Shown here in pieces: positions 9,719-25,971 of a DNA stretch of 26,535 nt; position 1 is the stretch's first letter; each line of letters opens with the position of its first letter. The DNA is taken from positions 1-26,535 of IMG/VR virus record IMGVR_UViG_3300036770_003535; one strand, 5' to 3'. A program made the position numbers and the translations under genes. The DNA comes from a virus. Under the pieces are notes generated by a model that saw nothing but the letters and a program-made list of their open reading frames with translations, searched no databases and was not told the origin of the DNA.

Positions 9719-10223
9719 CTATCAGATCACTGCCCGCTGCGAAGGCGGGATGGTCACCCCTTTTGATCCGTCCCTGGTCAACCCGGCCAGCCTTGACGTG
9801 CGGCTGGGTGGCACGCTCTTGATTGAGTCTGCCCAATCGCCGCAGCTGGTCCCCTACCCGTTGGAGCAGCACAGCCAGGAGCATCCGTACATGATGCGAC
9901 CCGGTGAGTTTGTGCTGGCCCAGACCCTTGAAGAGTTCAACATCCCAGTTGATGTGGCCGCACAGTTTGTCCTGAAGTCGAGCAGGGCCAGGGAAGGCAT
10001 CGAGCATCTGCTGGCCGGGTTCGCTGACCCTGGCTTCAACGGCTCGGTCATGACGCTTGAGCTGCACAACAGCAGGCAGCTCCATGCGGTGCCGATCTGG
10101 CCTGGCATGAAGATCGGCCAGATGATCTTCTACGTGATGGCCGACGTTCCCCTGAGGAGCTATGCGGTCGTCGGGAACTACAACGGCGACCGGGTTGTCA
10201 CGGCCAGTCGAGGGCACCTCTAA
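9702..10223 (+). CDS. dcd: dCTP deaminase (dCTP to dUTP), 173 aa
   Basis: Dcd deaminates dCTP to dUTP, the precursor of dUMP and hence dTTP. Family features visible: NPASLDVRLGG near the N-terminus, KSSRAREG (Ser and Arg of the nucleotide site), and GFADPGFNGSVMTLELHN with the catalytic Glu in TLELHN. PGMKIGQMIF comes near the end. The length agrees with the 175-195 aa family. The start MAILADYQ at 9702 is preferred over 9678 because the family begins directly with a strand/helix containing IxxYQI. The gene overlaps its neighbours on both sides (TAATG with the sigma factor). A phage copy probably rebalances pyrimidine pools for its own replication. Confidence 0.9.
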   Translation: MAILADYQITARCEGGMVTPFDPSLVNPASLDVRLGGTLLIESAQSPQLVPYPLEQHSQEHPYMMRPGEFVLAQTLEEFNIPVDVAAQFVLKSSRAREGIEHLLAGFADPGFNGSVMTLELHNSRQLHAVPIWPGMKIGQMIFYVMADVPLRSYAVVGNYNGDRVVTASRGHL

Positions 10224-11152
10224 TGAAAAAGGACACCCTTGATGTCTTCCTGAACGAGGCCAGCAGGATCCCACTCCTCACCCCTTCAGAAGAAATCCAT
10301 CTGGGCCGCCGCGTCCAGGCCATGATGCAACTGCAGGAGCAGAGCAAAGGGCCCTACACCACAGCCCAGCAGCGGATCATCAAACGTGGCATCGCTGCCC
10401 GTAACCGCATGATCAGCGCCAACCTCAAGCTGGTGGCAGCCATCTGCCGTAAACGCCAGCGGTCGCTAGGCGGGTTCCAGACCAGTGCTGAGGACATGAT
10501 GCAAGACGGCATCCTCGGCCTGATCCGTGGCGTCGAGAAATACGACCCAGAGCGGGGTTACAAGTTCTCGACCTATGCCTACTGGTGGATCACGCAGATG
10601 ATGACCCGTGGCATCGAGGCCCACGGCAGGCAGATCAGGCTGCCGCACAAGATCGCGGAGAAGTTCATGGGCCACAACCGCATCATCCAGCGGCTGGCCG
10701 GTGAACTGGGCCGCCAGCCCACCAGGCCGGAGATTGCCCAGGCCATGGGCATCACCGAAGAGGAATACGACCGCGCCCTGTTGCTGGCTGCACCCTGTGC
10801 CAGCCTGGACGTGGCCATCCTTGACGATGGCAGTGACCTGGGCGGGCTGGTCGGTGATGGCTCTGACGCGGACCAGCACCTTGAGCAGGTGTCAGATCGC
10901 ATTGATACCGAGCTGCTCAACACGGCCATGGCCAACCTGCCGGAACGCCAGCAGCTGATCATCAAACTCCGCTATGGCCTCGACGGCAACGAGCCGCACA
11001 CGTTCACGGCCATCGGGCGGAAGCTCAATGTGACCCGTGAAGCCGTCAGGCTGCAAGCTGAGCGGGCATACAAGGCCCTGCAGCGTCACATGCTATTGGC
11101 CAAACAGGTGAAGCAACCAGCGCATGACCCGTGGGGGTTGCTTACGGCTTAG
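10223..11152 (+). CDS. RpoD-like sigma-70 family factor, cyanobacterial group 2 type (309 aa)
   Basis: Full sigma-70 architecture without region 1.1. Region 1.2 is at about 5-35 (IPLLTPSEEIHLGRRVQ), a pattern typical of cyanobacterial group 2 sigmas. Region 2 is at about 57-145, including RGYKFSTYAYWWITQM with the -10 melting and reading residues. Region 3 is at about 146-215 and region 4 at about 235-290. Region 2.4 keeps the Gln and Thr that read the -10. In the -35 helix the usual RERIRQIE is REAVRLQA, so positions equal to E. coli R586 and Q589 are Ala and Leu. It is the last gene of the Erf operon, coupled to dcd by TAATG. That suggests a middle-time regulator switching host RNA polymerase to later phage genes. 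A captured host sigma is the likely origin. Confidence 0.9.
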   Translation: MKKDTLDVFLNEASRIPLLTPSEEIHLGRRVQAMMQLQEQSKGPYTTAQQRIIKRGIAARNRMISANLKLVAAICRKRQRSLGGFQTSAEDMMQDGILGLIRGVEKYDPERGYKFSTYAYWWITQMMTRGIEAHGRQIRLPHKIAEKFMGHNRIIQRLAGELGRQPTRPEIAQAMGITEEEYDRALLLAAPCASLDVAILDDGSDLGGLVGDGSDADQHLEQVSDRIDTELLNTAMANLPERQQLIIKLRYGLDGNEPHTFTAIGRKLNVTREAVRLQAERAYKALQRHMLLAKQVKQPAHDPWGLLTA

Positions 11153-11368
11153 CTCCGCTTCCATCTCCAGCATCCCGACATGGTGAATGGCCTGACGGAT
11201 GATGGCAGCTTGCAATGCGTTTTGTTGCGTTAATGAACACGCAATGTTTACAAGCTGATCAACATTCTCCGGCCCTTCACGTTTGATTGCAGACAGATGG
11301 CTATGCATCTGTGCTTCTGCAGAAATGCTTAATCTTGGGACCAGCCATTCACTCCAGGCCACGGGCAA
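11093..11368 (-). CDS. Small hypothetical protein (up to 91 aa), convergent with the sigma gene
   Basis: Minus-strand frame with non-ATG starts at 11368 (TTG) or 11362 (GTG); an internal ATG at 11308 is also possible. The sequence is protein-like: SISAEAQMHSHLSAIKREGP, ENVDQLVNIACSLTQQNALQ, then AAIIRQAIHHVGMLEME, an all-helical pattern. Its last 20 codons overlap the 3' end of the sigma gene. The DNA here (about 11160-11380) is clearly less GC-rich than its surroundings, suggesting separate acquisition. It is divergent from the gene at 11402. No family is recognised. Confidence 0.55.
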   Translation of the reverse strand: MPVAWSEWLVPRLSISAEAQMHSHLSAIKREGPENVDQLVNIACSLTQQNALQAAIIRQAIHHVGMLEMEAELSRKQPPRVMRWLLHLFGQ

Positions 11369-11388
11369 CTTAATCAGGGTCTTGCATG

Positions 11389-11394
11389 TATGTT
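11389..11394 (+). promoter_or_regulatory. Candidate -10 (TATGTT) giving a leaderless start at 11402
   Basis: TATGTT lies exactly 7 nt before the ATG at 11402, the same arrangement as TATGTT and the integrase ATG at 4741. A -10 at this distance would place the transcription start at the start codon. The -35 region is poor here, so support is limited to the shared layout. Confidence 0.3.
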
Positions 11395-11401
11395 GCCCGC
11401 C

Positions 11402-11566
11402 ATGGCTGTTGATGTTGTGCCTTACATCACAGTTGTTTTGGATGAGCGGGGGTCAGCGGTCTGGCAGGTTGTCGCAGCAGGGATAGCGGTCAACTGCTAC
11501 TGCGGCCAGCGGGCGCTGGAGGTGCTGCGGGTGGTCTGCAAAAGCAAGGGGCTGAAGGCTCCCTAG
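11402..11566 (+). CDS. Small hypothetical protein (54 aa)
   Basis: ATG at 11402, stop TAG at 11564-11566. The product begins MAVDVVPYITVVLDERGSAV and continues WQVVAAGIAVNCYCGQRALE. This is a beta-rich start then a helix, with three Cys, two of them in a CYC pair. No ribosome binding site is visible. It converges on the endolysin gene and the two stops share the tetramer CTAG (11563-11566). The coding sequence has coherent codon use, so it is probably real, perhaps an accessory gene inserted between the early and lysis modules. No function is assigned. Confidence 0.5.
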   Translation: MAVDVVPYITVVLDERGSAVWQVVAAGIAVNCYCGQRALEVLRVVCKSKGLKAP

Positions 11567-12744
11567 CGTTCAGCGATGATGGCCCAGCCGGTATTGGTGC
11601 CCTCGACCATCCACCGTGGTCCCCAGTTCTTCCTGCTGTAGCGGGCATACCGGGCCACGCTGCTCATGGTGGTCCCATTGACCAGATCGGCCTCCCCGAG
11701 CGGGTCATGCACGATCACGTTGCTGCTGTCGTAGCCGACGACGCACAGCCAATGGCCACCACCAGATGGCTTGCTTACAGGGCCACGGTGCAGGTAACCA
11801 CAGGGCACCGGGATCCCGCGCTTGATCTGATCCTCCAGCGTGCGCCAACCAGCCACCTTGGTGAACTTGGCTTTGATGCCATAGCTCTGCAATGCCCTGA
11901 TCTGAGCCGTGGGGTCGGTGGTGTCGCCGTACTGCTGCACCCGCTTGAGGTACAGGTCATCACCGTTGGGCGTGATCAGCAGGCCAGGCTTCAGGTAGGA
12001 GAGGAGCATGGCGCAGCTGGAGGAGAAGCACATGCGGCGGCCTTGGTCCGTGGCTGAATCCAGCTGGGCGTACCAGTTGACGCTGAGCGGGTTGCCGTAG
12101 CTGCCCTGCTGCAGGGTCTTGCCGACGAACAGGGCCACCTCCGCATTGCGCCTGCGCACCAATCCATCAAGCACCTTGCCGTCAGCGTGGACCCATTTAG
12201 GTAGCTCCTCCGAAACGACCTTGACCGGATCCTCGTTGGCATTGAGCCGCTTGCGGAGAGTCGAGTCCTCCAGTGCGGCCAAGCCCACGTTGTAGGCAAA
12301 GCTGATCAGCGCGGCGATCTGGTTGCCGCTCCACTTCTTGCTGTTGGGGATCAGATGGAACACCCCAGGAGCAAACAGATCAAACAGAGCGGTCTGCAGC
12401 ATGTAATCCGCTTGCTGCACCGTGATGGTGTCGTCTTTGCGGACAGGGCCACCGCTGGGCCCGCTATAGCGAGTCGTCCCATACCCAATCGTCCACACCC
12501 CTGCCGGACACTTGTAGGCCTCAAGCCGCAGGCCCTCCCATTCCTTAATGATGGCCAGCGCCGGGGCCAACCAGTCGGGATCGGGCTGCTTCCCGGCTTG
12601 GCTCCAAGTGTGGAACCATTCATTCTCCCGGTGCAGGAGGCTGGCGGGGATCAGCTCGCCCAGTTGCTGAAGGGCCGCGATCTGATGGGGCGCTCCCTTG
12701 TAGTAGCGGAATAGATCAAGGAACTGGATTGGGTTCTTGGTCAT
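11563..12744 (-). CDS. Two-domain endolysin: GH24 lysozyme plus C39-like cysteine peptidase (393 aa)
   Basis: Residues about 55-210 form a phage-type lysozyme (GH24, muramidase). E70, C79 and T85 fit the family triad spacing Glu-8 residues-Asp/Cys-5 residues-Thr in EWEGLRLEAYKCPAGVWTIG, with Cys in place of Asp as in P21-like lysozymes. LISFAYNVG is also typical. Residues about 220-393 look like a C39-like papain-fold domain: Q227 (oxyanion), C239 (MCFSSSCAMLL), H331 (GGHWLCVVGYD) and D347 (VIVHDPLG). Together it could cut both glycan and a peptide, or the C39-like part may bind or process a partner. There is no signal peptide, so it needs a holin. It is the last gene of the leftward lysis block and overlaps the upstream gene by ATGA. 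Confidence 0.85.
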   Translation of the reverse strand: MTKNPIQFLDLFRYYKGAPHQIAALQQLGELIPASLLHRENEWFHTWSQAGKQPDPDWLAPALAIIKEWEGLRLEAYKCPAGVWTIGYGTTRYSGPSGGPVRKDDTITVQQADYMLQTALFDLFAPGVFHLIPNSKKWSGNQIAALISFAYNVGLAALEDSTLRKRLNANEDPVKVVSEELPKWVHADGKVLDGLVRRRNAEVALFVGKTLQQGSYGNPLSVNWYAQLDSATDQGRRMCFSSSCAMLLSYLKPGLLITPNGDDLYLKRVQQYGDTTDPTAQIRALQSYGIKAKFTKVAGWRTLEDQIKRGIPVPCGYLHRGPVSKPSGGGHWLCVVGYDSSNVIVHDPLGEADLVNGTTMSSVARYARYSRKNWGPRWMVEGTNTGWAIIAER

Positions 12745-12944
12745 GGTTCAGCAATGGGAGGAAGATCAGGCAGCCGATCACCCATGGCCTTGTCTGCCCT
12801 GCGGTACGCCTGCTGCCCGATATACGCCGCCACCGGCTCCAGAAAGGCCTTGAGCACGATCAGCCTGAGGGCACCAGCCAACAGGCTCCCGGCGATGATG
12901 TCGCCAATGATCCGCAGGTCATCCCATCCCCAATGCACACTCAT
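12741..12944 (-). CDS. Small membrane protein, holin candidate (67 aa)
   Basis: The ATG at 12944 is chosen over the longer frame because GGAGG lies 8 nt before it. One long hydrophobic region at about 13-43 (IIGDIIAGSLLAGALRLIVL, then KAFLEPVAAYIG) could make one or two membrane passes. The tail is charged and Pro-rich (RRADKAMGDRLPDLPPI). It lies directly upstream of the endolysin (ATGA overlap) in a cluster of four small membrane proteins, the classic place for a holin. Which of the four is the holin cannot be decided from sequence. Confidence 0.6.
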   Translation of the reverse strand: MSVHWGWDDLRIIGDIIAGSLLAGALRLIVLKAFLEPVAAYIGQQAYRRADKAMGDRLPDLPPIAEP

Positions 12945-13147
12945 TGGAACGGCCTCCGGCAAGCATCAACTACCTTCTGCATGAGCTGGCCGTGATCATG
13001 CCTCAACCGCCTTTGTTCATCGACGGTGCCCTGAATTGACCAGGCAAACACCGAGCCGATCAACAACAGGAACAATGCACCAATCGGAATGGCCAGCTCC
13101 ATGATGTGCCAGCGATCTGTAATCCTGCGGTGCTGGTGATCGTCCAT
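12941..13147 (-). CDS. Small membrane protein of the lysis block, spanin- or holin-like (68 aa)
   Basis: ATG at 13147, directly after the previous stop; the end overlaps the next ATG (ATGA). Residues about 16-37 form a transmembrane segment (MELAIPIGALFLLLIGSVFA). A polar, probably helical tail follows (VDEQRRLRHDHGQLMQKVV). One N-terminal membrane anchor followed by a helical tail resembles inner-membrane spanins (Rz-like), but it is short for one. An outer-membrane lipoprotein partner was not seen. A shorter product from the internal ATG (MELAIPI) is possible. Confidence 0.6.
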   Translation of the reverse strand: MDDHQHRRITDRWHIMELAIPIGALFLLLIGSVFAWSIQGTVDEQRRLRHDHGQLMQKVVDACRRPFQ

Positions 13148-13387
13148 CTACTCTTCCCGCTTGGCAAACCGCCCGTGCTCATCACGATGCGGCGGCTGCC
13201 TCAGGTCTGGGTTGTAGGTCTGATAACCCCGCTCAAAGCCTGCTCGCGCTGCACCGCCCAGACCCATGATGGCCAGCGCACCAGTCCAGCGGCTTTCAGA
13301 CCAGCCACCGGTCCCGGCATAGATCAGGCCGATCAGCACCGGGATGAAAAGACCGGCATCAACTTGGCCCTTGAAAAAGCGATTCAT
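13148..13387 (-). CDS. Small membrane protein of the lysis block (79 aa)
   Basis: ATG at 13387 overlapping the previous stop (ATGA). A transmembrane segment is likely at about 11-29 (AGLFIPVLIGLIYAGTGGW), and a second, weaker Gly/Ala-rich one at about 34-50 (WTGALAIMGLGGAARAG). The C-terminus is polar and basic (RDEHGRFAKREE). Two short membrane segments with a charged tail fit class II holins, so this is a holin candidate alongside 12741-12944. Confidence 0.6.
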   Translation of the reverse strand: MNRFFKGQVDAGLFIPVLIGLIYAGTGGWSESRWTGALAIMGLGGAARAGFERGYQTYNPDLRQPPHRDEHGRFAKREE

Positions 13388-13665
13388 CGGAGTTCAAGGC
13401 GAATGATCCGCCGGTCGTGCTCCTGCACTTGCTTCTCCAAGTCGATGAACTTGGAATTGAACAGCTCTTGGTTTTCCACGATCTGAACGATCCTGGCCTC
13501 CAGCTGCTGCAGCCTGTTCGGTAGCTGAACAACCAGCCACCCCACACCAGCAGCAGTGCCGATCACAGCAGCACTCAACACAGAGGCAGCCGTGGCCTCC
13601 ATGACCTGAATCCTGCTGAACTTCCGCCGTTCAACAAACGGTGGTGGTTGCTGCTCGGTGGTCAC
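13384..13665 (-). CDS. Membrane-anchored coiled-coil protein, first gene of the lysis block (93 aa)
   Basis: Starts considered: TTG 13671 and GTG 13665. The GTG gives MTTEQQPPPFVERRKF and is preferred. A basic N-terminus is followed by a membrane segment at about 28-48 (ASVLSAAVIGTAAGVGWLVV), then a coiled coil to the end with regular heptads (LPNRLQQLEARIVQIVENQE and on). The layout of anchor plus coiled coil resembles an inner-membrane spanin or an XhlA-type lysis accessory. The late motif GGAAACCTA lies 25 nt before the GTG, so this gene probably heads the lysis transcript. Confidence 0.62.
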   Translation of the reverse strand: MTTEQQPPPFVERRKFSRIQVMEATAASVLSAAVIGTAAGVGWLVVQLPNRLQQLEARIVQIVENQELFNSKFIDLEKQVQEHDRRIIRLELR

Positions 13666-13690
13666 AACCAAAGGTGAAGCACGACCTCTT

Positions 13691-13699
13691 TAGGTTTCC
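13691..13699 (-). promoter_or_regulatory. Late-region motif GGAAACCTA, lysis copy
   Basis: Minus-strand CGGAAACCTAAAG sits between the stop of the upstream tail gene (13702) and the lysis block, 25 nt before GTG 13665 (19 nt before TTG 13671). It is one of four exact copies of the nonamer seen in the window, all in gene gaps of the late region. Confidence 0.6.
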
Positions 13700-13701
13700 G
13701 C

Positions 13702-14082
13702 TTACTGGAACCTGATGGTCAACTCGATCTGGTTTTGCGGACCCACACCTTTGGGCACGTTGGCCGCCTGAACAAGGGTGCCCGGATAGGCCGCGACAAC
13801 GGCTGCCGCAGGAGCCTCGAGGCTGGTGGCATCAGACCAGTCGATCAGGTAGACCGTCCATTCCCTGAATGCACCGGGATCCTTGTAGGCATCAATGGGG
13901 GACAGCTCAGGGTCACGCACGATGACCACCTCCATGCCGGTGACCGTCGTATCCACAGGCCTACGCTCACCCACTGCCCGCACGCTGATCGCTGGCGTGG
14001 TGCTGCCATTGCCCAGTGTGTAGGTGCCCAAGGATGCAGACAGCAAGGATGCCAGTGCATTGCGCAGCTCCAATACCGTCAT
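13702..14082 (-). CDS. Probable tail-associated protein (126 aa)
   Basis: Starts considered: GTG 14088 and ATG 14082. AGGAGG lies 4 nt before the GTG and 10 nt before the ATG, so either is possible; the ATG gives MTVLELRNALASLL. The protein has an N-terminal helix and then beta-rich sequence (TPAISVRAVGERRPV, TGMEVVIVRDPELSP, FREWTVYLIDW, NQIELTIRF). This overall pattern resembles small phage tail-completion or minor tail proteins. It lies between the tail chaperone gene and the lysis block with its own late motif upstream. No specific family is claimed. Confidence 0.6.
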   Translation of the reverse strand: MTVLELRNALASLLSASLGTYTLGNGSTTPAISVRAVGERRPVDTTVTGMEVVIVRDPELSPIDAYKDPGAFREWTVYLIDWSDATSLEAPAAAVVAAYPGTLVQAANVPKGVGPQNQIELTIRFQ

Positions 14083-14103
14083 CAGCACTCGGCCTCCTGA
14101 TCC

Positions 14104-15275
14104 TTAGGTTTCCCCCTTCAGCAGCAGATCCGCTTCAATCCAGCCTGCCAGCTTGCGGTTAGGCACGCTCACCTGATAGCTGGCTAGCGGGCGGTCAATG
14201 TCCCTGACCTCAATCTGCCCATGGGCCTGGCCCAGAACGCAGACCAGCCCACCACGCACATGCGGGCCCTCCCACCGTGGGCACAGGATCCACACCCGAT
14301 CATCGGAGGATGCCAATGCTCTGATGCTCGGCACACTGGCCGACTCGGTGGCCGCGGCCAGAATCGAATGCCAGATGGCCAGCACACCCCTTGGCGCACG
14401 GTCCTCATGCCTCAAGGCCAAGGCCACTGCAGCCACCTCCGGCGACAGCTGGCCGGGGCCATCATCTGGCTTCTCGTTGAAGACGCAGAAGTCGTAGAGG
14501 CTGAACGGCTTGGCCTTCTTCGGATCTCTGTTCATGTTGGCCATCAAGGCCGACAGGTTGGCCACCGGCAGCTCAGCCATGGCTGCCTGCTCCCGTCTGA
14601 TGCTGTGCAGCGTCCGCCAGGCCTTGAGCACAACGACCCGCTTTTCTTGGCCAAAGGTCTGCCGGTCAAACTGGCCGGGGTAACCGTTGGCTAGCTCCCA
14701 GAAGATCTTTTGCCAGTCGGCTTCCTGCTGTTGCCAGTGGCCAGCGGCTGCTTTCCCAGGTCTTCCTCCGTGGGCGGACTAGCAGGCATCTGCTCGGCAG
14801 CCTGCTCCTCTTGCGCCAGCTCCCAGATCGCATCAAACAGTGCCTTGTGCAGACCCTTGGTGTCCTCCACCGTCCACTCGGGCACCTTCAGCCTGCAACG
14901 GATCAGGGCGGTCACGGTGGCCTCCATGTTGGCCTGGCCTGCCTTGGAATAGACGCGGGCCACCTCGGAAATCCGCTCGGCATGGCGGATGCGGATCTGA
15001 TCCGCGTCATCCTCCAACGGCCTGCCCATGACAGCCTTCTCAATGATCTGGAACGCTTCGGTCAGGGAGACTTCCTCGACCTTGGCGATCACATCAGCGG
15101 CAGCAGCACCCGTGACAAAGGCGGAACGCTCAGAAGCCAGCATCTCCGAAATGATGGCCGACTCATCAACGGTCAACCCACCAATCACAGGCATCTCAAG
15201 GATGCCAGAAGCGGGTGTGCCTAGGCGACGGGTTGAATGGGACGCTGGTGATTGGACGAACGGTAATGTCGTCAC
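14104..15275 (-). CDS. Tail assembly chaperone, long frameshifted form (G-T type)
   Basis: Predicted -1 frameshift product of about 390 aa. The zero frame starts at GTG 15275 and would slip at G GGA AAG (14757-14751) into a frame that is open to 14104. The -1 frame is closed by a TAG about 27 nt upstream of the slip site. Its first residues after the slip (ADWQKIFWELANGYPGQFD) look genuine although no standard start codon precedes them. The heptamer equals the one used for lambda gpG-gpGT. The T-like part is helical, with RRVVVLKAWRTLHSIRRE-type sequence. In lambda these proteins coat and recruit the tape measure and tail tube before tail polymerisation. Here the gene lies downstream of the tail tip genes rather than next to the tape measure. 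Confidence 0.75.
14105..14113 (-). promoter_or_regulatory. Late-region motif GGAAACCTA, copy overlapping the tail chaperone stop
   Basis: Minus-strand GGAAACCTAAGG includes the TAA stop of the long tail chaperone frame. It lies 22 nt before ATG 14082 (16 nt before GTG 14088) of the following gene. Confidence 0.55.
14691..15275 (-). CDS. Tail assembly chaperone, short form (G type), 194 aa
   Basis: GTG at 15275 overlaps the stop of a 39-aa gene (GTGA). The protein has a disordered N-terminus, then IPVIGGLTVDE-like sequence (MPVIGGLTVDESAIISEMLA) and a helical domain (about 60-130). Next comes LIRCRLKVPEWTVEDTKGLH and FDAIWELAQEE, then an acidic/Pro-rich end leading to the slippery site. This matches the general layout of phage tail chaperones that are extended by a -1 shift. 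Most ribosomes would end at the stop at 14691, giving the short form in excess, as in lambda. The direct family assignment rests on the frameshift signal more than on the residues. Confidence 0.75.
   Translation of the reverse strand: MTTLPFVQSPASHSTRRLGTPASGILEMPVIGGLTVDESAIISEMLASERSAFVTGAAAADVIAKVEEVSLTEAFQIIEKAVMGRPLEDDADQIRIRHAERISEVARVYSKAGQANMEATVTALIRCRLKVPEWTVEDTKGLHKALFDAIWELAQEEQAAEQMPASPPTEEDLGKQPLATGNSRKPTGKRSSGS
14751..14757 (-). promoter_or_regulatory. -1 ribosomal frameshift site GGGAAAG
   Basis: In the zero frame the codons are CTG GGA AAG, so the heptamer reads G GGA AAG, a correct X XXY YYZ slippery site. It is the lambda G-T heptamer. It lies near the end of the 194-aa frame where the -1 frame is open for 216 further codons. 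A strong downstream pseudoknot or stem is not obvious by eye. Confidence 0.8.
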
Positions 15276-15391
15276 TTGGTATTACGGATGTTGTTAGTGA
15301 GCTTAGCGTTGAGCTGGCGAAGGAGGAACGCATAACGGTTAGCCTGCGTCTGGGCTTGGGCTTTTTGGATAAGGGCTTTGGGGTCGGTCAT
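15272..15391 (-). CDS. Small hypothetical protein (39 aa)
   Basis: ATG at 15391, 4 nt after the stop of the tail fibre gene; TGA at 15274-15272 overlaps the GTG of the tail chaperone. The product is helical and basic: MTDPKALIQKAQAQTQANRY then AFLLRQLNAKL. It has clear codon structure and coupling on both sides, so it is likely a real small tail-module gene. No function is recognised. Confidence 0.5.
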   Translation of the reverse strand: MTDPKALIQKAQAQTQANRYAFLLRQLNAKLTNNIRNTK

Positions 15392-15395
15392 GGCT

Positions 15396-16550
15396 TTAGT
15401 TAAAGCGGACAGTGATAGGGCCACACAAGACTGGGCCTATATCGCTGTTGACCGATTCGTCTCCCGAAAACACTTGAATTTCTACAATGGGCTTACAGTC
15501 CAGCGATGTTACAGGAAAAGGCAGTTGGCTTTCTAAAACAACCACACCATCTATGTGAATAGAAAGATAATGGCTGCCGTTCAGCTTGTTAAGGCGAAAA
15601 GAGAAAGATTGCTCGGAGTCCAAGATAATACCAGTGTCAAGGCTTTTACTTATAGACAAATCGCCTGTAGCATTATCTCGGCTGAACCAAAATAGAGATA
15701 CCCCTTGGCGCTGGTCGATATTATTTCTACTTATTTGTCCGATAAACTGATAAAGACTGGTAAATTTATCTTCGCCGCTTGACTGCGAATCGAGTAAGTA
15801 GACCTGCACGCTTACCCTAGAGAAACGGGTGGATGGGGAGCGAATTACCGCCGATAAGTCAACGGAGAGTGTGTCTATTCTCTTTCCTAGCGATTTAGTA
15901 ATTGGCCTCTGGGCCAGCAAATCATAAGCTAGGTCTGATGAGCCTCGAACAGGGGTATCGCTTATCGACCCTCTAATGAAGACAGCGCTTGGAGTCGCGC
16001 CAAACTCGTTGATCACAAGCGGCTGTGCTTCTAGATATGGCTTATTGTTTAAGGACGTACGCCGATATTGAACCGCCTGAACAAGCGTTCCATACTGTGC
16101 TGTGGTCAAAAACGATCCAAAACCTGGGTTTATTCCGCCTTTTTTGCGGAATGGACATGTAAATGCGGCAACTTCAAGGGGAATACCAAATTCACTTTCT
16201 GAAACACGGTAATATGCATCGAAAGCGGGGTCTGCAAATGTGCAGCTCCACTCAATCCCTGTTGTTTGTCGGCTGGCGCCGATTTGTTGGTTGAGGCGGG
16301 GGATGCCGGGGGTAGAGGCAGAGCCGAAGCGAGCCAGGGTGGTGGCAGAGACTGGCGGGATGAGGGGGTCGCCGGTTTCGGGATTGAGGCCTGCGGCGAT
16401 GCGATCCAGGCGGCGGCGTTCGGTGCCGGCGGCGGTGGCCTTGTTGGCGTTATTGCGCACCACGGCGCCTTGGCGGTTGGCGGCTTGCTGCTGGGCGTTG
16501 CGCTCGACTAGTCCACCGTCGCCTGTGGTGACCGTGATGCGGGTGGTCAT
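15396..16550 (-). CDS. Chimeric tail fibre / receptor-binding candidate (384 aa)
   Basis: ATG at 16550, 3 nt downstream of the neighbouring tail gene. Residues about 1-95 are encoded by DNA as GC-rich as the rest of the phage: a helical anchor with RNAQQQAANRQGAVVRNNAN and RRRLDRIAAGLNPETGDPL. From about residue 100 (DNA left of about 16250) GC content drops sharply. The protein becomes beta-rich, ending in sequence like a lectin/concanavalin-type jelly roll: SFSFRLNKLNGSHYLSIHID and VVVLESQLPF. An N-terminal virion anchor joined to a compositionally foreign beta domain is the usual build of receptor-binding proteins. The assignment is from layout and position after the tail tip genes, not from a recognised family. 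Confidence 0.65.
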   Translation of the reverse strand: MTTRITVTTGDGGLVERNAQQQAANRQGAVVRNNANKATAAGTERRRLDRIAAGLNPETGDPLIPPVSATTLARFGSASTPGIPRLNQQIGASRQTTGIEWSCTFADPAFDAYYRVSESEFGIPLEVAAFTCPFRKKGGINPGFGSFLTTAQYGTLVQAVQYRRTSLNNKPYLEAQPLVINEFGATPSAVFIRGSISDTPVRGSSDLAYDLLAQRPITKSLGKRIDTLSVDLSAVIRSPSTRFSRVSVQVYLLDSQSSGEDKFTSLYQFIGQISRNNIDQRQGVSLFWFSRDNATGDLSISKSLDTGIILDSEQSFSFRLNKLNGSHYLSIHIDGVVVLESQLPFPVTSLDCKPIVEIQVFSGDESVNSDIGPVLCGPITVRFN

Positions 16551-17411: not shown

Positions 17412-17420
17412 TAGGTTTCC
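17412..17420 (-). promoter_or_regulatory. Late-region motif GGAAACCTA, minor tail copy
   Basis: Minus-strand CGGAAACCTAGG lies in the short gap after the stop at 17433 and 22 nt before the GTG at 17389. The distance to the start codon is the same 22 nt as for the tape measure copy. Confidence 0.6.
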
Positions 17421-18992: not shown

Positions 18993-20920
18993 GCGGTCCT
19001 CCCGACAATGCCCCAGTACAGGGCGTCAGTGGAGGCCACGACGCCGTTGCTGTCCATTGTCCAAGAGGTGCCGTTGGTGCGGTACTGCGTGACGACGCCG
19101 TTGGCGGTGAGGTAGAAAGCGCCAAAGGGGGCATTAGGCAACACCTCGGGAACGGTTTGGATGTTCATGCCGTTGCGGTTGCCGAAGAGCAGACGGTTCT
19201 GGGTGGTGCCGTAGAGCTTGGCCTTGACAGGGGCGTTGCTCTTGATAGAGGTGTAGGAATAGACAGTCGGGTTGGCCGACTTGATGGTGCGCGTAAACGT
19301 GTCGTCTGGGGCGTAGGGCATGGACAGCTCAATGCGGCGACTGGCTGTGCGGCTGCCAGTGACCAGCTCAATTTCGCTGACGCTTTCGGTCCTGTAGCCG
19401 TTGTCAGGGTCGGAGGTGTCGGGGTCGGCCAAGTTCTCGTTGTTGATGTCCTCGGGTGCGGGGGCTTCTTGCGATCCAGCGCCAGGGGCAGAGCGGGTCG
19501 TGTTGACACTGACATCGGACAGGACCAGACCGCCAAAGATCAGATCGAGCAGGCTGTTGGCCGCCTCTGCGGTAAACGTGGATTCACGGCTTTCGGCAAT
19601 GGCCTGCTGACCGGCAGAGCTGTAGATCCACGGTTGGTAGCGGCGGGTGATGGTCTTGCGGTAGTTGCCGTTGATATAGGTGTTGACGGTGGTCCGCTCC
19701 AGCGTGACCGTGTTGGTTGGGATGGGGATAAAGGTGTTGCTGCCATCCTCGTTTGGGAAGACCCAAGGGATTGAAGCGGCACCAGCAAGGAACACGGCAC
19801 TCCCGGTACGAGTCAACTCGCGGAACACTTCGTTTCCATCAATGTCGTAGTCGAAGGTTTCCACGGTTGTGGAAGACACCTGGCTGTTGCCGAAGCTGTT
19901 GCCGTTGCTGAGGTAAGACGTGGCAATATTGCCCGCAACTTGGACAAGGCTGGTGTCCTCATTGATTTGGCGCCGGACCACCACGTAGCGGTTCTCGTCT
20001 TTGAAGATGCGTTTGGCGTAGGTGGTCTGCTCGCTGGTACTTGATTTGGCGTTGTAGGTGGCAATAACTTCGTTGCCTTCAGCGTTGGTGTAGGCGATGC
20101 CAACGGTGCTGGTGGCAGAGGTGGTGGCCACTTCGGTGCCCCAGCCGGTGGAGGTGCCGGGGATCAGGGAAGTGGGGGTGACATCGCCTTCTACCCGTTC
20201 AGCGACTTCGGTGTCGTCGGGAATCTTGAGCCTGAGGGTGCTGTAGCTGACGGTCACAGCATCCCCGGCCAAATCGCCTACGCCGATGGGGCCGATGTCG
20301 ATCAGTTGGCCTTCACCGAAGGAGGGGCCAGAACCAGGCGGGGAGGCCAGGCTGATGATCTGGAGGGTTTCGGTGTAGTCGAGGTAGCCGTAGTAGGACT
20401 CGGAGACGAGCAGGTCGCTGAGGGTCTGGACGTAGCCGCTGCCGAAGTCAAACTCGGCCACGCTGAATCTGTTGGTCAGCGGGACGCTGCTGGCGCTGAT
20501 GCCCAGTTCAGTAAGGCACTTGCGCATGACCGATGCGGCCCAGATGGGGAAGGTGACGATCTGGGATTCGGCTTCGGTGATGCTGCTGTTTTCGGGGTCG
20601 TCAAGGGCGCTCCAGTTGATTGGATCCTTGAGGTCTTGGAGGTAGGTCAGTTTGCAGCCGAGTTCGACCTTGGTGGTGCGGCGGAAGGGGTCGGCAAAGC
20701 TGGAGAGCACCCGCAGCTTGCGGGGGATGGCGCGGGTGACACCCGACTTGGTGTAGTTGAAGGTGACAACGCTGCCAACAGCAGGAGACACAAGGCCGCT
20801 GATTTCACAGTTGCCACGGGTCTTGATCAGACCGCTGCCCTGGATGTAGTCGTCGTTGACGCTGGCACTGATCAGCGTGCCGAGCGAGCAGGTAACAGTG
20901 GCGCGAATATCAACTGGCAT
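18989..20920 (-). CDS. Tail tip / tail-associated protein (643 aa)
   Basis: ATG at 20920, overlapping both neighbours. The N-terminal 250 residues (MPVDIRATVTCSLGTLISAS, FNYTKSGVTRAIPRKLRV, ESYYGYLDYTETLQIISLA) resemble the hub domain of siphophage tail-associated proteins. The middle is long and beta-rich with many Thr/Ser/Glu. The C-terminal about 90 residues contain YGTTQNRLLFGNRNGMNIQT and FGAFYLTANGVVTQYRTNG, a pattern typical of cyanophage structural end domains. Position directly after the tape measure and a distal-tail-like protein supports a tail tip role. It may carry the fibre genes encoded downstream. Confidence 0.7.
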   Translation of the reverse strand: MPVDIRATVTCSLGTLISASVNDDYIQGSGLIKTRGNCEISGLVSPAVGSVVTFNYTKSGVTRAIPRKLRVLSSFADPFRRTTKVELGCKLTYLQDLKDPINWSALDDPENSSITEAESQIVTFPIWAASVMRKCLTELGISASSVPLTNRFSVAEFDFGSGYVQTLSDLLVSESYYGYLDYTETLQIISLASPPGSGPSFGEGQLIDIGPIGVGDLAGDAVTVSYSTLRLKIPDDTEVAERVEGDVTPTSLIPGTSTGWGTEVATTSATSTVGIAYTNAEGNEVIATYNAKSSTSEQTTYAKRIFKDENRYVVVRRQINEDTSLVQVAGNIATSYLSNGNSFGNSQVSSTTVETFDYDIDGNEVFRELTRTGSAVFLAGAASIPWVFPNEDGSNTFIPIPTNTVTLERTTVNTYINGNYRKTITRRYQPWIYSSAGQQAIAESRESTFTAEAANSLLDLIFGGLVLSDVSVNTTRSAPGAGSQEAPAPEDINNENLADPDTSDPDNGYRTESVSEIELVTGSRTASRRIELSMPYAPDDTFTRTIKSANPTVYSYTSIKSNAPVKAKLYGTTQNRLLFGNRNGMNIQTVPEVLPNAPFGAFYLTANGVVTQYRTNGTSWTMDSNGVVASTDALYWGIVGRTA

Positions 20921-21669
20921 TAGATCACCTGCAACACGGTCATCTGCACGTTGTATCGGGTGGCCTTGACGCCACCTGTGATGATCACCTCAGCGGTGGC
21001 CGTGGGTGGGTTGATCGGGAACCATGTGCCAGCAGAGGGCACACTGGCAACGGTCGTGTCGTACCAGCTCAGCAGGTTGGCAAAGGTGCCGGAGCTGATG
21101 TAGCCCTCGACCTGGCGGATCTTGTGCGCGACCAACGGGCCGGTCACATAGCTCTTACCAGTAGCCGTCAGCGCCACCGCAGGGCCGTCCTGGCGAGTAT
21201 CAGCAGGGGCAGTCAAGGTGACCACGGCAGAGCCAAAGGTCAACGTGCCAAGGCTGGGCCGGGTGGCCTCAGACTCTTGCCTCGACTTCTCCTGACTGCG
21301 CAGCAGAACGGCCACGGCTTGGGCCGCATCCACCAAGGTGACCGTGGCCGAGACGTAGGTACCAGCCTGCTCACCACTGGGGGGCTCAGTGAACCAGCAG
21401 GCCAGACTGGTCACGCTGAGGCCATTGGTCGAGGTGATGGACAGGTTGACGGTGGTGCCGACCACGCCACTGCTCAGCGTGTCTTCATCGGCAATCCGAG
21501 CGTTCCGCCAGGTGTTGTATTCACTGATCAGTGCCTGCCACTGGGTCGGGGTGAGCAGGCCAGCAATGCGGAAGGTGCGAGCAGTCAGCCCCGTGCGAGC
21601 CTCACCCTCGTAACCAAACGGCTGGGCCGTGAGGGCATTGGTGGTGAAGGTGCCAATGGTGACGGTCAT
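20920..21669 (-). CDS. Distal tail protein-like (249 aa)
   Basis: ATG at 21669, overlapping the tape measure stop by one nucleotide. The sequence looks like a duplicated beta domain: FRIAGLLTPTQWQALISEYN in the first half and RQVEGYISSGTFANLLSWYD in the second are equivalent segments, each followed by strands (VNLSITSTNGLSV; AEVIITGGVKATRYNVQM). Located just after the tape measure, it fits the place of the distal tail (Dit-like) or tail terminator adaptor. The call rests on synteny and internal duplication. Confidence 0.62.
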   Translation of the reverse strand: MTVTIGTFTTNALTAQPFGYEGEARTGLTARTFRIAGLLTPTQWQALISEYNTWRNARIADEDTLSSGVVGTTVNLSITSTNGLSVTSLACWFTEPPSGEQAGTYVSATVTLVDAAQAVAVLLRSQEKSRQESEATRPSLGTLTFGSAVVTLTAPADTRQDGPAVALTATGKSYVTGPLVAHKIRQVEGYISSGTFANLLSWYDTTVASVPSAGTWFPINPPTATAEVIITGGVKATRYNVQMTVLQVI

Positions 21670-23687
21670 CAGAGTGCCCCGTTATTCAGCGCCTGCTGCT
21701 CAGACGGCAGAGCGTATGCAGCACCATTGACACGAACAGTCCAGTCTTTGCCAGCGAGCTTCTCGGTCACATCTGCCAATCGGGTGTTGATGGCAGCAAG
21801 GGCAGAAGTCGTATCAGCCAATGCCTGCTGCGCTTGCACCACATTCTGGTTTGCCACATCCTCCGTATTGGTTCTGGTGATGAAGTCCCGGATGGCTGCA
21901 TTCACATCAGCAGTGCTGCCAGAGAATTCGGGAGCTTGCGCACCAGTTAGATTCCTGAACCTGGCTTGCGCTTCCCTGAACTGGGGCAGCAGCAACTGGA
22001 AGTCTTCCTGCGCACGACGAGCCTGATCGCCAGGGTTCAGGAATTTGTTGAGCCCTTGCGGATCACTGCGGATGCCAGTCAGGTCAAGGATTGCAGAATC
22101 CAGATCCCGCTTAAGCTGTTGACCAGCATCCCTCAAGGCAGAAGCGCCTTCAACCAGCTTTAAGCGGAACTCTTCAGCCGCGACACGCTGATCATCAACA
22201 AGGCGCTTAAGCTCAACATTCTCAAAGTCGATTTTGCCGCTCAGACGCAAGCGGTCAATTTGAGCACCAATGTCCTTGATCTGATCTTCTGCCGCAGAAA
22301 TCCCCGCCAGATACTGCTGAATCGTCTCGCGGTTCTGACGCTGGATATTAACGCCACCTCTCGTCTCAATGGCCTGCAATTCAAGGATGGCATCAATTTC
22401 TCGCTGAATCGCAGTGATGCGAATTTTGGCCTGGGCTTCTGATTGTTGCTTTTCAGCAAGTGCTTCTTGCCTGCGGAGGGCCAGCTCCTTCTGCTTTTTG
22501 GCATTCTCGTCATCTTGCCTAGTGCCAACAGGGTCAAGACTTGTATTCCCCAGCAGCTCTCGGAATGCCTTGATTGCCTCCTCTGCCTCGCCCTTGGCAG
22601 CTCCAATAGCTTTGGAGGATCCCGCCATGGCCGCATCAAGGCCTTTTGCGGCAAGAGCCGTAGCACTGACCGCAGCAGCCAACACAGCCCAGCCCTTCGG
22701 ACCAGTCAGCGCAATCACACCAGCCTGAGCAACAGCAGCCGCCTTGGCTGCAACCGCCCATGCCTTAAAGCCAAGCTGCACAGCCTTGATGCCCAAGGCA
22801 AACGGCAGCAGCGTCTTACCTATGCCGACAATGCTTTTGCCGAAGTTGCCAATCGCTGTCTGGTTTTCCTTGATGAACCGGGTGAAGGCAATGACACCAG
22901 CGGAAACGTTGGTGAGCAGATTGGTGACAGTTGGGCCAAAGGCTTTTGCAACTTCAGCCTGCAGACCTCTAAATGCAATGCCAAGGTTTTCAACTTCAGT
23001 CCGACCAGGAGCTGCCGCACCGGCCAGGCTCTTTGCCGCATTGAAGACGATTTCTGAGGTGATCTTCCCTTCGCTGCCCAGCTTCCGCAGCTGACCGACA
23101 TTGACCCCGATCTCTGCTGCGATGGCCTGCGACAGAGCAGGCAGACCCTCCAGCACGGAGCGGAGCTCATCACCCTGCAACACACCGGACGCTAAGCCTT
23201 GCTTGAGTTGCAGCAGTGCTCCGGCAGCCTCCTGAGTACCCGCACCAGACAAGCGAGCAGCATTGGTGACACCAACAAACAAGACCTCTAGCTGCTGCAG
23301 ACCGATGCCGGTGCCACGCAGAGCTGCAAAGAGCTGTGCAAACCCTTGACTCGCTTCAACGGAGCTGATGCCAAGCACCTTGGAAATGCGAGACACGGCA
23401 GCAGTAGCCTGCTCGGCCTCTCCATAGGCTCCAGCCAAGGCAGCAATCTGAATCTCAGCCTGTTTGGCAGCCTGACCTGTAGCAATGACCTGCTGCGTGA
23501 AAGCGGCAAAGCTGATTGCGCTGACAACATTGGCCAGCAGGCCGACAGAGCCACCCAGACCAGAGAATGCCCGGCCTACCTGATCCGCTGCAGCGTTGGC
23601 ATTCTGCCGAGCACGACTGAGCCCAGCATTGAACTGCTTATCGTCAACGGTCAGCGTCAGTACCGCTTGCCCAAGCGAGTCTGCCAC
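21669..23687 (-). CDS. Tail tape measure protein (672 aa)
   Basis: The tape measure sets tail length and occupies the tail lumen. The N-terminal region has VDDKQFNAGLSRARQNAN, common to many tape measures. Residues about 80-230 contain the typical domain with LGISSVEASQGFAQLFAALR, GLASGVLQGDELRSVLEGLP and KLGSEGKITSEIVFNA. A hydrophobic stretch (about 290-350; LLPFALGIKAVQLGF, then Ala-rich helices) probably spans or inserts into the host membrane at DNA ejection. Long coiled coils follow (about 380-590). By the usual rule of about 0.15 nm per residue, a tail near 100 nm is expected. The start is GTG 23687 with AGAGGGG just before it, and the late-type motif GGCAACCTA 22 nt upstream. Confidence 0.9.
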   Translation of the reverse strand: MADSLGQAVLTLTVDDKQFNAGLSRARQNANAAADQVGRAFSGLGGSVGLLANVVSAISFAAFTQQVIATGQAAKQAEIQIAALAGAYGEAEQATAAVSRISKVLGISSVEASQGFAQLFAALRGTGIGLQQLEVLFVGVTNAARLSGAGTQEAAGALLQLKQGLASGVLQGDELRSVLEGLPALSQAIAAEIGVNVGQLRKLGSEGKITSEIVFNAAKSLAGAAAPGRTEVENLGIAFRGLQAEVAKAFGPTVTNLLTNVSAGVIAFTRFIKENQTAIGNFGKSIVGIGKTLLPFALGIKAVQLGFKAWAVAAKAAAVAQAGVIALTGPKGWAVLAAAVSATALAAKGLDAAMAGSSKAIGAAKGEAEEAIKAFRELLGNTSLDPVGTRQDDENAKKQKELALRRQEALAEKQQSEAQAKIRITAIQREIDAILELQAIETRGGVNIQRQNRETIQQYLAGISAAEDQIKDIGAQIDRLRLSGKIDFENVELKRLVDDQRVAAEEFRLKLVEGASALRDAGQQLKRDLDSAILDLTGIRSDPQGLNKFLNPGDQARRAQEDFQLLLPQFREAQARFRNLTGAQAPEFSGSTADVNAAIRDFITRTNTEDVANQNVVQAQQALADTTSALAAINTRLADVTEKLAGKDWTVRVNGAAYALPSEQQALNNGAL

Positions 23688-23709
23688 TGCCCCTCTCTTT
23701 CACTGCCCC

Positions 23710-23727
23710 TAGGTTGCCGGAAACCTA
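23710..23727. promoter_or_regulatory. Divergent inverted repeat of the late-region motif
   Basis: TAGGTTGCCGGAAACCTA is an inverted repeat: plus-strand GGAAACCTA (23719-23727) lies 19 nt before ATG 23747, and minus-strand GGCAACCTA (23718-23710) lies 22 nt before the tape measure GTG 23687. One site therefore serves two divergent genes, which fits a pair of back-to-back start elements. Confidence 0.65.
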
Positions 23728-23746
23728 AGCCACAGGCGTGTAGACG

Positions 23747-24142
23747 ATGGCATCAGCATTAGCTTCCCTTGCCAATGCTTCCCTCGTCCTGGCCCTTCCC
23801 ACAGCTGGCACCGTCACGGATGCCACCACGGGCAACGTCACGGCAGCCACTGAAAACGTGACTATTTCAGCGTTCCTGCGGCAGGGTTCACCCGATAAGA
23901 CCGAGCTGCCAGGCGTTGAGGCCTACACCGAAGTGTTTGAGGGGTATGCCATCAACCCGCAGGCCCTTGATGCCCGGATCAAACCCGGCACTCGCGGCAC
24001 CCTTGCTTTTGCTGGCCAAGCTGCCAAGACCTGTGAAATCCTCGCTGCTCGTCACCCCTATGGCACGACAGGGTTGATCGGCAGCACACTGCAATCTGTT
24101 ATTGGCGACCGGATCAGGGTGGCGATCTATGGTCAGCGTTAA
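23747..24142 (+). CDS. Probable head-tail connector or minor structural protein (131 aa)
   Basis: ATG at 23747. An Ala/Thr-rich N-terminus (ASALASLANASLVLALPTAG) is followed by VTISAFLRQGSPDKTELPGV, EAYTEVFEGYAINPQALDAR and IKPGTRGTLAFAGQAAKTCE. It ends with SVIGDRIRVAIYGQR, a barrel-like ending seen in head-closure or stopper proteins. It lies between the tail tube and tape measure genes but on the opposite strand from them. The next gene overlaps it. The connector role is an inference from synteny and size. Confidence 0.6.
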   Translation: MASALASLANASLVLALPTAGTVTDATTGNVTAATENVTISAFLRQGSPDKTELPGVEAYTEVFEGYAINPQALDARIKPGTRGTLAFAGQAAKTCEILAARHPYGTTGLIGSTLQSVIGDRIRVAIYGQR

Positions 24143-24554
24143 GGCCACCTACAAGCTGACCGGCTGGAATGCCACCCAGCTCAAGCTGCGCATCCCGGCG
24201 ATCATGACGGCCTATGGCAAGGCCATGGATCAGCAGCTCAAAGAGGAAATCCAACTGGTGCAGTTCAGTTGGCCGGTCACGACCTACCGCCGCAACGGCA
24301 CCATTGAAGGCAGCCCACGCGACATCGTGGACACCGGGGCATTCCTCAAATCCCAGCGCCGCAACCGCATCAATGCCACCACCATTCAATTCTCTTGGGG
24401 CAACAGCGGCGTCACCTATGCCGGATACATCCTCCGTGGCGTCCCAGGCAAGAATTACCCACCACGCGACTGGATTGGATTGGCCCTCAACAACCTGCCC
24501 TTAGAGCCCTTCTTTGCCAAGGAATGGCGCAGCCTTGCTGGCCGCAGGCTCTAG
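24129..24554 (+). CDS. HK97 gp10-like / tail completion protein (141 aa)
   Basis: ATG at 24129 (MVSVKATYKLTGWNA) is preferred over 24102; it overlaps the previous TAA. The sequence has an amphipathic helical start (LKLRIPAIMTAYGKAMDQQL), then a Gly-rich loop with SPRDIVDTGAFLKSQRR, strands TTIQFSWGNSGVTYAGYI, and YPPRDWIGLALNN near the end. The D-T-G-x-L/F-x-x-S pattern, the Y-A-x-x-x-x-G-V region and a final R-D/P-W/F helix match the gp10-like tail completion/neck family. This is the second gene of the inverted block. Its end faces the end of the tail tube gene. Confidence 0.65.
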   Translation: MVSVKATYKLTGWNATQLKLRIPAIMTAYGKAMDQQLKEEIQLVQFSWPVTTYRRNGTIEGSPRDIVDTGAFLKSQRRNRINATTIQFSWGNSGVTYAGYILRGVPGKNYPPRDWIGLALNNLPLEPFFAKEWRSLAGRRL

Positions 24555-24559
24555 ACATG

Positions 24560-24584
24560 AAAAAGGGCTGACAACTGCCAGCCC
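24560..24584 (-). terminator. Rho-independent terminator after the tail tube gene
   Basis: On the minus strand GGGCTG (24584-24579), an 8-nt loop, CAGCCC (24570-24565) is followed directly by TTTTT (24564-24560). The site is 23 nt downstream of the tail tube stop. On the plus strand the same hairpin lies after the stop at 24554 but without a T-tract. Confidence 0.7.
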
Positions 24585-24606
24585 CTCCTCAAACCCCCTA
24601 CCCTGC

Positions 24607-25368
24607 TCAGCTGACAGTCGCCACCTCAAACACAGGGGCCACATCGCTGCCAGAACCGCCAACGTCAGCCAGAGCAACCGTCAACCGATCACCCACGCGA
24701 TAGTTGGTCCCACCGGCAATGATCGTCGGCGCAGCAGACACTGCACCACCACCGGCAACGATGATGTCAGCCGTTGCACCAAGACCCGAACCCACACCAG
24801 CCGCAGGGTCGCTGCTGATCAGCGTCTTGCCGCTGTAGGTCGCAGGGGTCAGCCCGCTACCACCAGACACCACCGTCAACGTGGCAATAGGGTTGCCCTG
24901 CGGATACCACTTGAGCTGTCCATAGCCGCGCATGGTGAAGCTGACCGTGGCCACGTTGCCAGCCTGCACACTTTCCTGAAATCCCTCCACGAAGCAGATG
25001 CCAGCGTGGAATTCGGCATTGTCGCCAGAGCCATCCTTGACCGGCGACTTGCGGTAGACCTCCAGCGTGGTCCCTGCTGCACCATTCAGCCAGGCACGCT
25101 TGATGATCCGATAGCCCTCGCTGCCAAGGCTCAGGTTCATCTCAGCGGGAGTAGACCAGCCGATGCCAGTGATCAGCGGGGTCTTCCACCCATACTCAGA
25201 CGAGTAGTCAATGGGGGCATCAGTTGAATCGCTGCTGCCTTCCATCGAGGCATTGGTCAGCGAAATCACCTCAGTCATGCCAACCGTAGAAGTCGGCGCA
25301 GTGCTGGACGTAGTGCCCAACTTCACAAAAAGTTCGTAGTCGAACGACGCGAAGTAGCCAGAGGTCAT
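24607..25368 (-). CDS. Major tail tube protein with C-terminal extra domain (253 aa)
   Basis: ATG at 25368. Tail tube features: MTSGYFASFDYELFVKLGTT, then TEVISLTNASMEGSSDSTDA, GIGWSTPAEMNLSLGSEGYR, and VEGFQESVQAGNVATVSFTM. These fit the beta-barrel tube fold of siphophages, where the last two segments form the inner sheet. After about residue 160 a Gly-rich domain begins (LTVVSGGSGLTPATYSG, IIAGGTNYRVGDRLTV). This domain type is often attached to phage structural proteins, like the Ig-like extension of lambda gpV. A terminator follows the gene and a sigma-like gene precedes it. Confidence 0.8.
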   Translation of the reverse strand: MTSGYFASFDYELFVKLGTTSSTAPTSTVGMTEVISLTNASMEGSSDSTDAPIDYSSEYGWKTPLITGIGWSTPAEMNLSLGSEGYRIIKRAWLNGAAGTTLEVYRKSPVKDGSGDNAEFHAGICFVEGFQESVQAGNVATVSFTMRGYGQLKWYPQGNPIATLTVVSGGSGLTPATYSGKTLISSDPAAGVGSGLGATADIIVAGGGAVSAAPTIIAGGTNYRVGDRLTVALADVGGSGSDVAPVFEVATVS

Positions 25369-25386
25369 TGACTTTGGGGGTTTTAA

Positions 25387-25971
25387 TCAAGTTTGCCCCG
25401 CATACCCCGAGGCCTCCTGCGCTTCAAGCCATTCCCACGGCGTTGGTTGATTCGACAGGTGCAGGTCAAACCCCATCGTTTCATGGGCGATGCCTGCGGT
25501 GGCCACCAGGGCATCCTTCAGCTCATCCATGGCACACCGCAGCCGGTCGCACACTTGCTCCACGGACAGGCCCTCATCAATCAACCGCCGAGCACTGCTG
25601 CCCAGTTCCCTGACCTTATGGGGGGCCTTGATTCCCCAGTTGTTGCCCCGCAGGTAATGCAACACCTCACCATGGGCAAAACACCAAAGAACAGTGCTCA
25701 GCTTGCCGCGCTTCGGATCCCAAGCCCTGAATGCCTTGATCGCTGCAAAATCGACGCAGCTGTTGATGTCCTCGATGGCCATGCAGTAGCGGTATTTCTT
25801 GGCCAGCTTGGCCTGGAAGAATTTGACCAGCTTGATGTTCTCGGCATACAGGCGGCCAAACTCCCGCTGCTCACGCCGACTCAGCGGTGTGCTGAGCAGG
25901 TCTGTGTTGCGCTTCTTCTGCTCGGCAACCCCCAGCCCAGCAAACATGTTCAGCTGGCTGGTGGCTTCCAT
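25387..25971 (-). CDS. Minimal sigma-70-like protein in the structural module (194 aa)
   Basis: The ATG at 25971 overlaps the previous stop (TGATG); a longer frame exists to 26031. Residues about 40-120 parallel sigma region 2: RLYAENIKLVKFFQAKLAKK, then IEDINSCVDFAAIKAFRAWD, then PKRGKLSTVLWCFAHGEVLH, ending with APHKVRE. The D-P-x-R-G-K-x-S-T sequence and the aromatic stretch after it correspond to region 2.3/2.4. Residues about 130-158 (DEGLSVEQVCDRLRCAMDEL) look like a helix-turn-helix equal to a reduced region 3 or 4. The protein is much smaller than a group 2 sigma, as are phage late sigmas such as T4 gp55. It lies between head-tail adaptor and tail tube genes, an unusual place for a transcription factor. 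Confidence 0.75.
   Translation of the reverse strand: MEATSQLNMFAGLGVAEQKKRNTDLLSTPLSRREQREFGRLYAENIKLVKFFQAKLAKKYRYCMAIEDINSCVDFAAIKAFRAWDPKRGKLSTVLWCFAHGEVLHYLRGNNWGIKAPHKVRELGSSARRLIDEGLSVEQVCDRLRCAMDELKDALVATAGIAHETMGFDLHLSNQPTPWEWLEAQEASGYAGQT

Follow-up and report, generated by a model that had tools for sequence, protein, structure and literature searches.

A minimal sigma factor with a candidate clamp-binding peptide and its putative late promoter element in a family of uncultured siphophages

The two sigma factor genes and their setting

The DNA analysed here, IMG/VR virus record IMGVR_UViG_3300036770_003535 (26,535 bases, a fragment; hereafter the window), encodes two sigma factors, i.e. 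one of the primary type (sigma1) and a minimal one (sigma2), and carries a repeated element, GGNAANYTA, in front of its late genes. Sigma2 very likely reads this element, and we consider it fairly probable that it is a dedicated late sigma factor tethered to a sliding clamp, so that late transcription in this phage would be coupled to replication. A rightward series of genes starting at 4729 includes a serine recombinase, a helix-turn-helix (HTH) regulator, an Erf-like annealing protein, a dCTP deaminase and sigma1, the last of which closes this early operon and faces the endolysin gene. Between 26531 and 11563 the genes run leftward and serve head-tail, tail and lysis functions, except for two genes at 23747-24554 that point the opposite way. 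Sigma2 is one of these leftward genes and lies between the head-tail adaptor and the major-tail-like genes. A second early group is formed by the leftward genes from 4587 to 202. The two sigma-like genes that a first-pass annotation of the window had described, one at the end of the early operon and the other inside the late module, are thus real. They and the peptide of interest lie as follows.

25387..25971, minus strand: sigma2, putative minimal late sigma factor, domains 2 and 3 without region 4, 194 amino acids (PHROG 351, PDB/Foldseek, alignments, AlphaFold)
25942..25956, minus strand: codons of QLNMF, candidate beta-clamp-binding motif, sigma2 residues 6-10 (alignment, motif counts)
10223..11152, plus strand: sigma1, primary-type (group 1/2-like) sigma factor, 309 amino acids (Pfam, PDB, phage homologues)

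The open reading frame (ORF) of sigma2 as called spans 25387-26031 on the minus strand and encodes 214 amino acids; however, the ATG at 25971, coupled through TGATG to the end of the head-tail adaptor gene, is the likelier start, and the protein probably has 194 residues instead. Pfam finds region 2 only, below threshold (19.8 versus 24 bits), and the protein matches PHROG 351 (sigma factor) at 2.8e-11. Its nearest folds and profiles in the PDB and Foldseek comparisons are SigB, WhiG and sigma-28; the profile match to S. aureus SigB spans both domains 2 and 3, the domain make-up of group 3, and the N-terminal domain of SigE matches the sigma2 fold with a template modelling score of about 0.8, the Foldseek E-values being weak overall (none below 0.001). 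The AlphaFold model, obtained from a 15-sequence alignment, has a mean predicted local distance difference test score of 73. The C-terminus, PTPWEWLE, is conserved (PTPWExLE in the alignment), and no region 4, which serves -35 recognition, was found either in the Pfam scan of the protein or in the whole-record scan at the sigma2 position. These comparisons indicate that sigma2 is a group-3 (SigB/SigF/FliA-type) sigma factor that retains the core-binding, -10-reading domain 2 as well as domain 3, and from which region 4 is gone. Furthermore, the gene occupies the same late slot, adjoining the adaptor gene and before the major tail gene, in all 50 of the loci that show the adaptor, some of which are near-identical.

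The late promoter element

The first-pass annotation had also pointed to GGAAACCTA as a repeated late element. This sequence is one spelling of GGNAANYTA, copies of which stand 19-25 nucleotides (nt) upstream of six late genes in the window, on the strand of the gene.

13691..13699, minus strand: GGAAACCTA, 25 nt before GTG 13665
14105..14113, minus strand: GGAAACCTA, 22 nt before ATG 14082; shares bases with the stop codon of the preceding gene; kept in relatives G006, G008 and G009
17412..17420, minus strand: GGAAACCTA, 22 nt before GTG 17389; retained in 29/29 distinct homologous windows
23710..23718, minus strand: GGCAACCTA, 22 nt before the tape-measure GTG 23687; 15/15 distinct homologous windows
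23719..23727, plus strand: GGAAACCTA, 19 nt before ATG 23747 of the divergent two-gene unit
25389..25397, minus strand: GGCAAACTT, 20 nt before the major-tail-like ATG 25368; overlaps the sigma2 3' end; 44/45 distinct homologous windows

The repetition is genuine: the four exact copies of GGAAACCTA (13691-, 14105-, 17412- and 23719+) each lie at a gene boundary, and with one mismatch allowed seven copies are observed versus 2.5 expected, a number reached by none of 100 shuffles. When the pattern is written as GG[AC]AA[ACG]CTA, all five copies in the window fall 15-26 nt before a start codon, and none of 100 column-shuffled patterns equals that. The annotation was right that GGAAACCTA and a second element, TGTCCCACC, are repeated, but had overlooked the degenerate late copies at 23710 and 25389. 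The former of these and its neighbour at 23719 together form an 18-base-pair imperfect palindrome that separates the tape-measure unit from the divergent p1 unit. The putative promoter in front of the major tail gene lies within the last codons of sigma2 (25387-25397), where GGAAACCTAG encodes Glu-Thr-stop of sigma2 in several relatives.

A profile of the late gene t10 brought in 71 further loci, so that the motif was surveyed in 81 loci, counting distinct 45-nt upstream windows. The element is held at homologous places in the relatives while the flanking bases vary. It stands before the genes that head units (t7, 29/29; tape measure, 15/15; major tail, 44/45; p1, 40/51), whereas two in-operon genes gave 0/60 and 1/27, and column-shuffled patterns in the same upstream windows average below 0.4 per gene. 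The gene t6 has the motif in 8/33 windows, mostly in genomes without t7 directly ahead of it. In relative G008 the motif also precedes the large-terminase unit and the portal and scaffold genes. A late-type GGAAACCTA is furthermore found in the early region of the same genome, at 17307 on the minus strand, 19 nt before a 149-residue ORF adjoining the integrase.

Downstream of the CTA the late element continues as G, G, g, after which a C-A or T-A step follows. No conserved -35 element was found in the t7 and major-tail sets, where the information content is near zero upstream to -45, nor is a separate -10 element conserved between the late element and the gene. A fixed element before unit heads with no upstream block to -45 therefore behaves as a one-block promoter, and on the most economical view the element would itself be the -10 region. 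Among the t10-scan loci, the sites of the group whose sigma2 lacks the N-terminal peptide described below tend to CTAGGgGTA and those of other lineages to CTAGGgCA, a split that may stem from differing preferences for the start or for the -10 region.

A candidate clamp-binding peptide in sigma2

The bacterial clamp-binding consensus is QL[S/D]LF or QxxLF (PMC12309361), and QLNMF near the N-terminus of sigma2 is a near match to it, with M for L. In the relatives, QLDLF, QLSLF, QLNLF, QLLLF, QLALF, QLCLF, QLQLF and similar peptides stand a few residues from the start of the protein, followed by a linker that varies in both length and sequence and then by the conserved sigma domains. The Q and the L are invariant in 15/15 aligned homologues. 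A QLxLF-type motif is present in 38 of 53 sigma2 proteins, and in the first 15 residues of none of the 1368 sequences read from the remaining methionine starts of these loci. Furthermore, no phage-encoded bacterial-type beta clamp (PF00712) was found in eight records. These observations suggest that the N-terminus of sigma2 is a hook for the beta clamp of the host, DnaN.

One may suppose instead that sigma2 is a plain minimal late sigma factor that reads the late motif without binding a clamp, and that QLxLF is an unrelated peptide making, e.g. another contact with the polymerase or with a host protein. This has in its favour that the remaining 15 of the 53 sigma2 proteins, whose N-terminus reads RGYLATPL, GYLATPL or similar, lack QLxLF and keep the late motif, and therefore clamp binding is not universal in the family. 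The peptide nevertheless agrees with the clamp consensus, its two invariant residues precede a linker that is not conserved, and it is absent from all the other starts, so that we regard this alternative as unlikely, albeit one to be taken seriously.

Which sigma factor goes with the late element

All of regions 1.2, 2, 3 and 4 of sigma1 exceed the curated Pfam cut-offs, and its best PDB matches are SigA/RpoD, as befits a sigma-70 factor of the primary type. It is 34-36% identical to the sigma factors of Synechococcus phages S-CBS1, S-CBS3, KBS-S-2A and S-LBS1, and is ordinary for phages of this kind. Given its primary-sigma regions 2 and 4, it can be expected to recognise ordinary -10/-35 promoters. 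One related contig, G042, carries a tandem pair of sigma1-type genes (304-1751) in addition to sigma2, i.e. three sigma factors on one phage contig.

The first-pass annotation had proposed a two-step cascade, in which the early sigma1 switches on the late units at GGAAACCTA, to be followed by sigma2, which maintains or redirects their transcription. The layout of the window, with sigma1 at the end of the early operon and sigma2 in the late module, is what such a cascade would produce, and a similar pair is known from phage P-SS2 (PMC2784084). However, the relatives G029, G030 and G033 have no sigma1-type gene and no other above-threshold sigma region 2, yet they encode sigma2, and each carries seven strict motif copies at 15-26 nt ahead of a start, against an expectation of 0.1-0.2. 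At the place usually taken by sigma1, G029 and G030 have the dCTP deaminase gene immediately next to the endolysin. Conversely, the four Synechococcus isolates named above and contig G013 have a sigma1-type gene, no detected sigma2 and no strict motif copies, a comparison in which it must be borne in mind that the late module of those phages is unrelated and that contigs may be incomplete. Because the sigma1-less relatives keep the motif and the sigma1-only isolates are without it, we conclude from these genomes that the late motif goes with sigma2, and that sigma1 does not appear to be needed for it. The co-occurrence of motif and factor across relatives, which the annotation had suggested as a check, thus favours sigma2 over sigma1. 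With a type of sigma factor that is expected on ordinary promoters as a further point against it, the action of sigma1 at the late element is not supported and the cascade as proposed is very improbable; it survives only in the sense that something early, perhaps sigma1, may help to make the first sigma2.

Proposed mechanism

In the explanation that we favour, host RNA polymerase carrying sigma2 would start at GGNAANYTA, which would serve as the -10 region, and the N-terminal QLxLF on its variable linker would tether sigma2 to host DnaN loaded on replicating phage DNA. Late transcription would then be coupled to replication, as T4 gp55 uses gp45. Since the sigma2 gene lies inside the late units, sigma2 would reinforce its own synthesis, and the first sigma2 would need a trigger, which might be read-through, a host sigma factor or, where present, sigma1. 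The latter would be an accessory early factor, probably helping host-type promoters and dispensable for the late element.

Besides the sigma2 proteins without the peptide, several points weigh against this explanation. The peptide is short, so that clamp binding is inferred from a short motif. A substitute for region 4 like T4 gp33 was not identified, although a search aimed at a flap-binding partner was not made. Motif and sigma2 are linked as parts of a single ancestral late module, and a homologous late module without sigma2, sought among the t10-scan loci, was not found. Co-divergence of sigma2 and its sites was considered as support and rejected, as the partial correlation (r 0.43) is lost once the other late proteins are taken into account. 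In addition, only 19 of 35 distinct windows show the motif immediately ahead of the adaptor-sigma2 unit (in the present record this region is beyond the window end); otherwise, the pair is downstream of other late motif copies.

That GGNAANYTA is instead the site of another phage regulator, an activator or repressor, with sigma2 acting elsewhere, might be read from the palindrome between the tape-measure and p1 units, which looks like a dimer operator, but we give this little credence, as two opposed copies explain the palindrome and the element elsewhere occurs singly, in one orientation and at a constant spacing from the start codon, with no separate -10 element conserved between it and the gene.

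The early element and other features

The second repeated element, TGTCCCACC, occurs in three exact copies on the minus strand, 13-14 nt before leftward ATGs and right after terminator-like hairpins.

1605..1613, minus strand: early element TGTCCCACC, 13 nt before ATG 1591
2689..2697, minus strand: early element TGTCCCACC, 14 nt before ATG 2674
3340..3348, minus strand: early element TGTCCCACC, 13 nt before ATG 3326

Copies with up to one mismatch are no commoner than chance (8 versus 9.2 expected), and therefore the case for the element lies in its exact copies and their constant position. In the relatives its position before e2, e3 and e4 is kept, and its sequence shifts jointly per genome (TGTCCCACC; CTACCAAC; CTATCAAC; TTCCCACTGCTG). 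This concerted drift suggests a cognate, genome-specific regulator, and the element resembles a genome-specific operator or leader element. We considered it as a sigma-linked promoter and rejected this possibility, since its position after hairpins, 13-14 nt before the ATG, and its concerted drift fit a repressor operator or leader. The annotation had named it alongside the sigma cascade; it is a separate early element with no visible link to either factor. In two further loci, six exact copies of TGTCCCACC in both orientations lie within about 170 bases upstream of e4 (L026, 9017-9189; L027, 995-1167), while the e2-e4 genes of these loci themselves carry CTACCAACA instead, and the upstream array is operator- or origin-like.

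The first gene of the same leftward group (4402-4587, minus strand) encodes a 61-residue protein with a hydrophobic N-terminal segment and an HTH resembling sigma region 4. Homologues are present in G009, G012, G013, G029, G030 and G042, the copy in G029 exceeding the region-4 cut-off, and the protein might act as a regulator anchored in the membrane or stand in for region 4.

Integrated copies that would reveal the host were sought in bacterial and archaeal genomes, scanned once with the sigma2 profile and once with the t10 profile, but no relative turned up, and t10 is carried by no isolate phage. Judged only from the relatives of sigma1 and the endolysin, the host is probably cyanobacterial. 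The phages around the window form a large, widespread uncultured siphophage family, with cyanobacteria as the probable host group.

Relation to known systems

The late promoter of phage T4 is TATA-like, unlike GGNAANYTA. The T4 late sigma factor gp55 has no region-4 domain, has a clamp epitope attached through a divergent linker and works at late promoters without a -35 element (PMC2988020), and sigma2 resembles it in all three respects, as it is minimal and lacks region 4, its candidate late promoter is a single block without a -35 element, and its clamp-type peptide sits on a divergent linker. However, the peptide of sigma2 stands at the N-terminus and resembles those that bind bacterial beta clamps, whereas the epitope of gp55 is C-terminal and addresses the phage clamp gp45. 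A phage beta clamp was not found in the eight records scanned for it, nor was a gp33 identified, though no search was aimed at the latter, and in sequence sigma2 is nearer to group-3 sigma factors (SigB, WhiG, FliA) and PHROG 351, with no late-sigma family matched.

Group-3 sigma factors such as SigB, WhiG and sigma-28 have region 4 and two-block promoters. Domains 2 and 3 of sigma2 align with theirs by profile and fold, but region 4 is missing from sigma2, whose candidate promoter is a single block. In Bacillus phage SPO1, phage sigma factors act in sequence, gp28 and then gp33/gp34. Judging from the genomes, late control in the present family, unlike in SPO1, requires sigma2 alone.

The presence of two sigma factors in one cyanosiphovirus is already known: Prochlorococcus siphovirus P-SS2, reported in 2009, has a primary-like group 2 sigma factor near dcd and a short group 3 sigma factor near the terminase (PMC2784084). 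Its short sigma factor, however, has no QLxLF at the annotated start, is located elsewhere and has no promoter assigned, and GGNAANYTA is at most weakly enriched in its genome. In S-CBS1, S-CBS3, KBS-S-2A and S-LBS1 the sigma1 homologue likewise lies opposite or near the endolysin at the border of early and late genes, but unlike in the window it is not accompanied by a detectable sigma2 or late motif. In the open-licence literature searched, whose silence does not establish novelty, we found no prior report of a GGNAANYTA promoter class, nor of a region-4-less group-3 phage sigma factor with a clamp motif, nor of clamp-coupled late transcription outside T4-type phages. We would put at slightly under an even chance the wider proposition that this family evolved a clamp-loaded group-3 late sigma factor independently of T4, through the loss of region 4, the gain of a hook for the host clamp and the reading of a one-block promoter.

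Conclusion

The link between sigma2, its promoter and the clamp can be tested with purified proteins or with a single peptide, and the promoter rule predicts late units across a large uncultured phage family. If the proposed mechanism is true, these phages would provide a second, apparently independent case of such coupling, here through the host clamp, making replication-coupled late transcription a recurrent solution, and DNA replication itself would license late transcription in this family.

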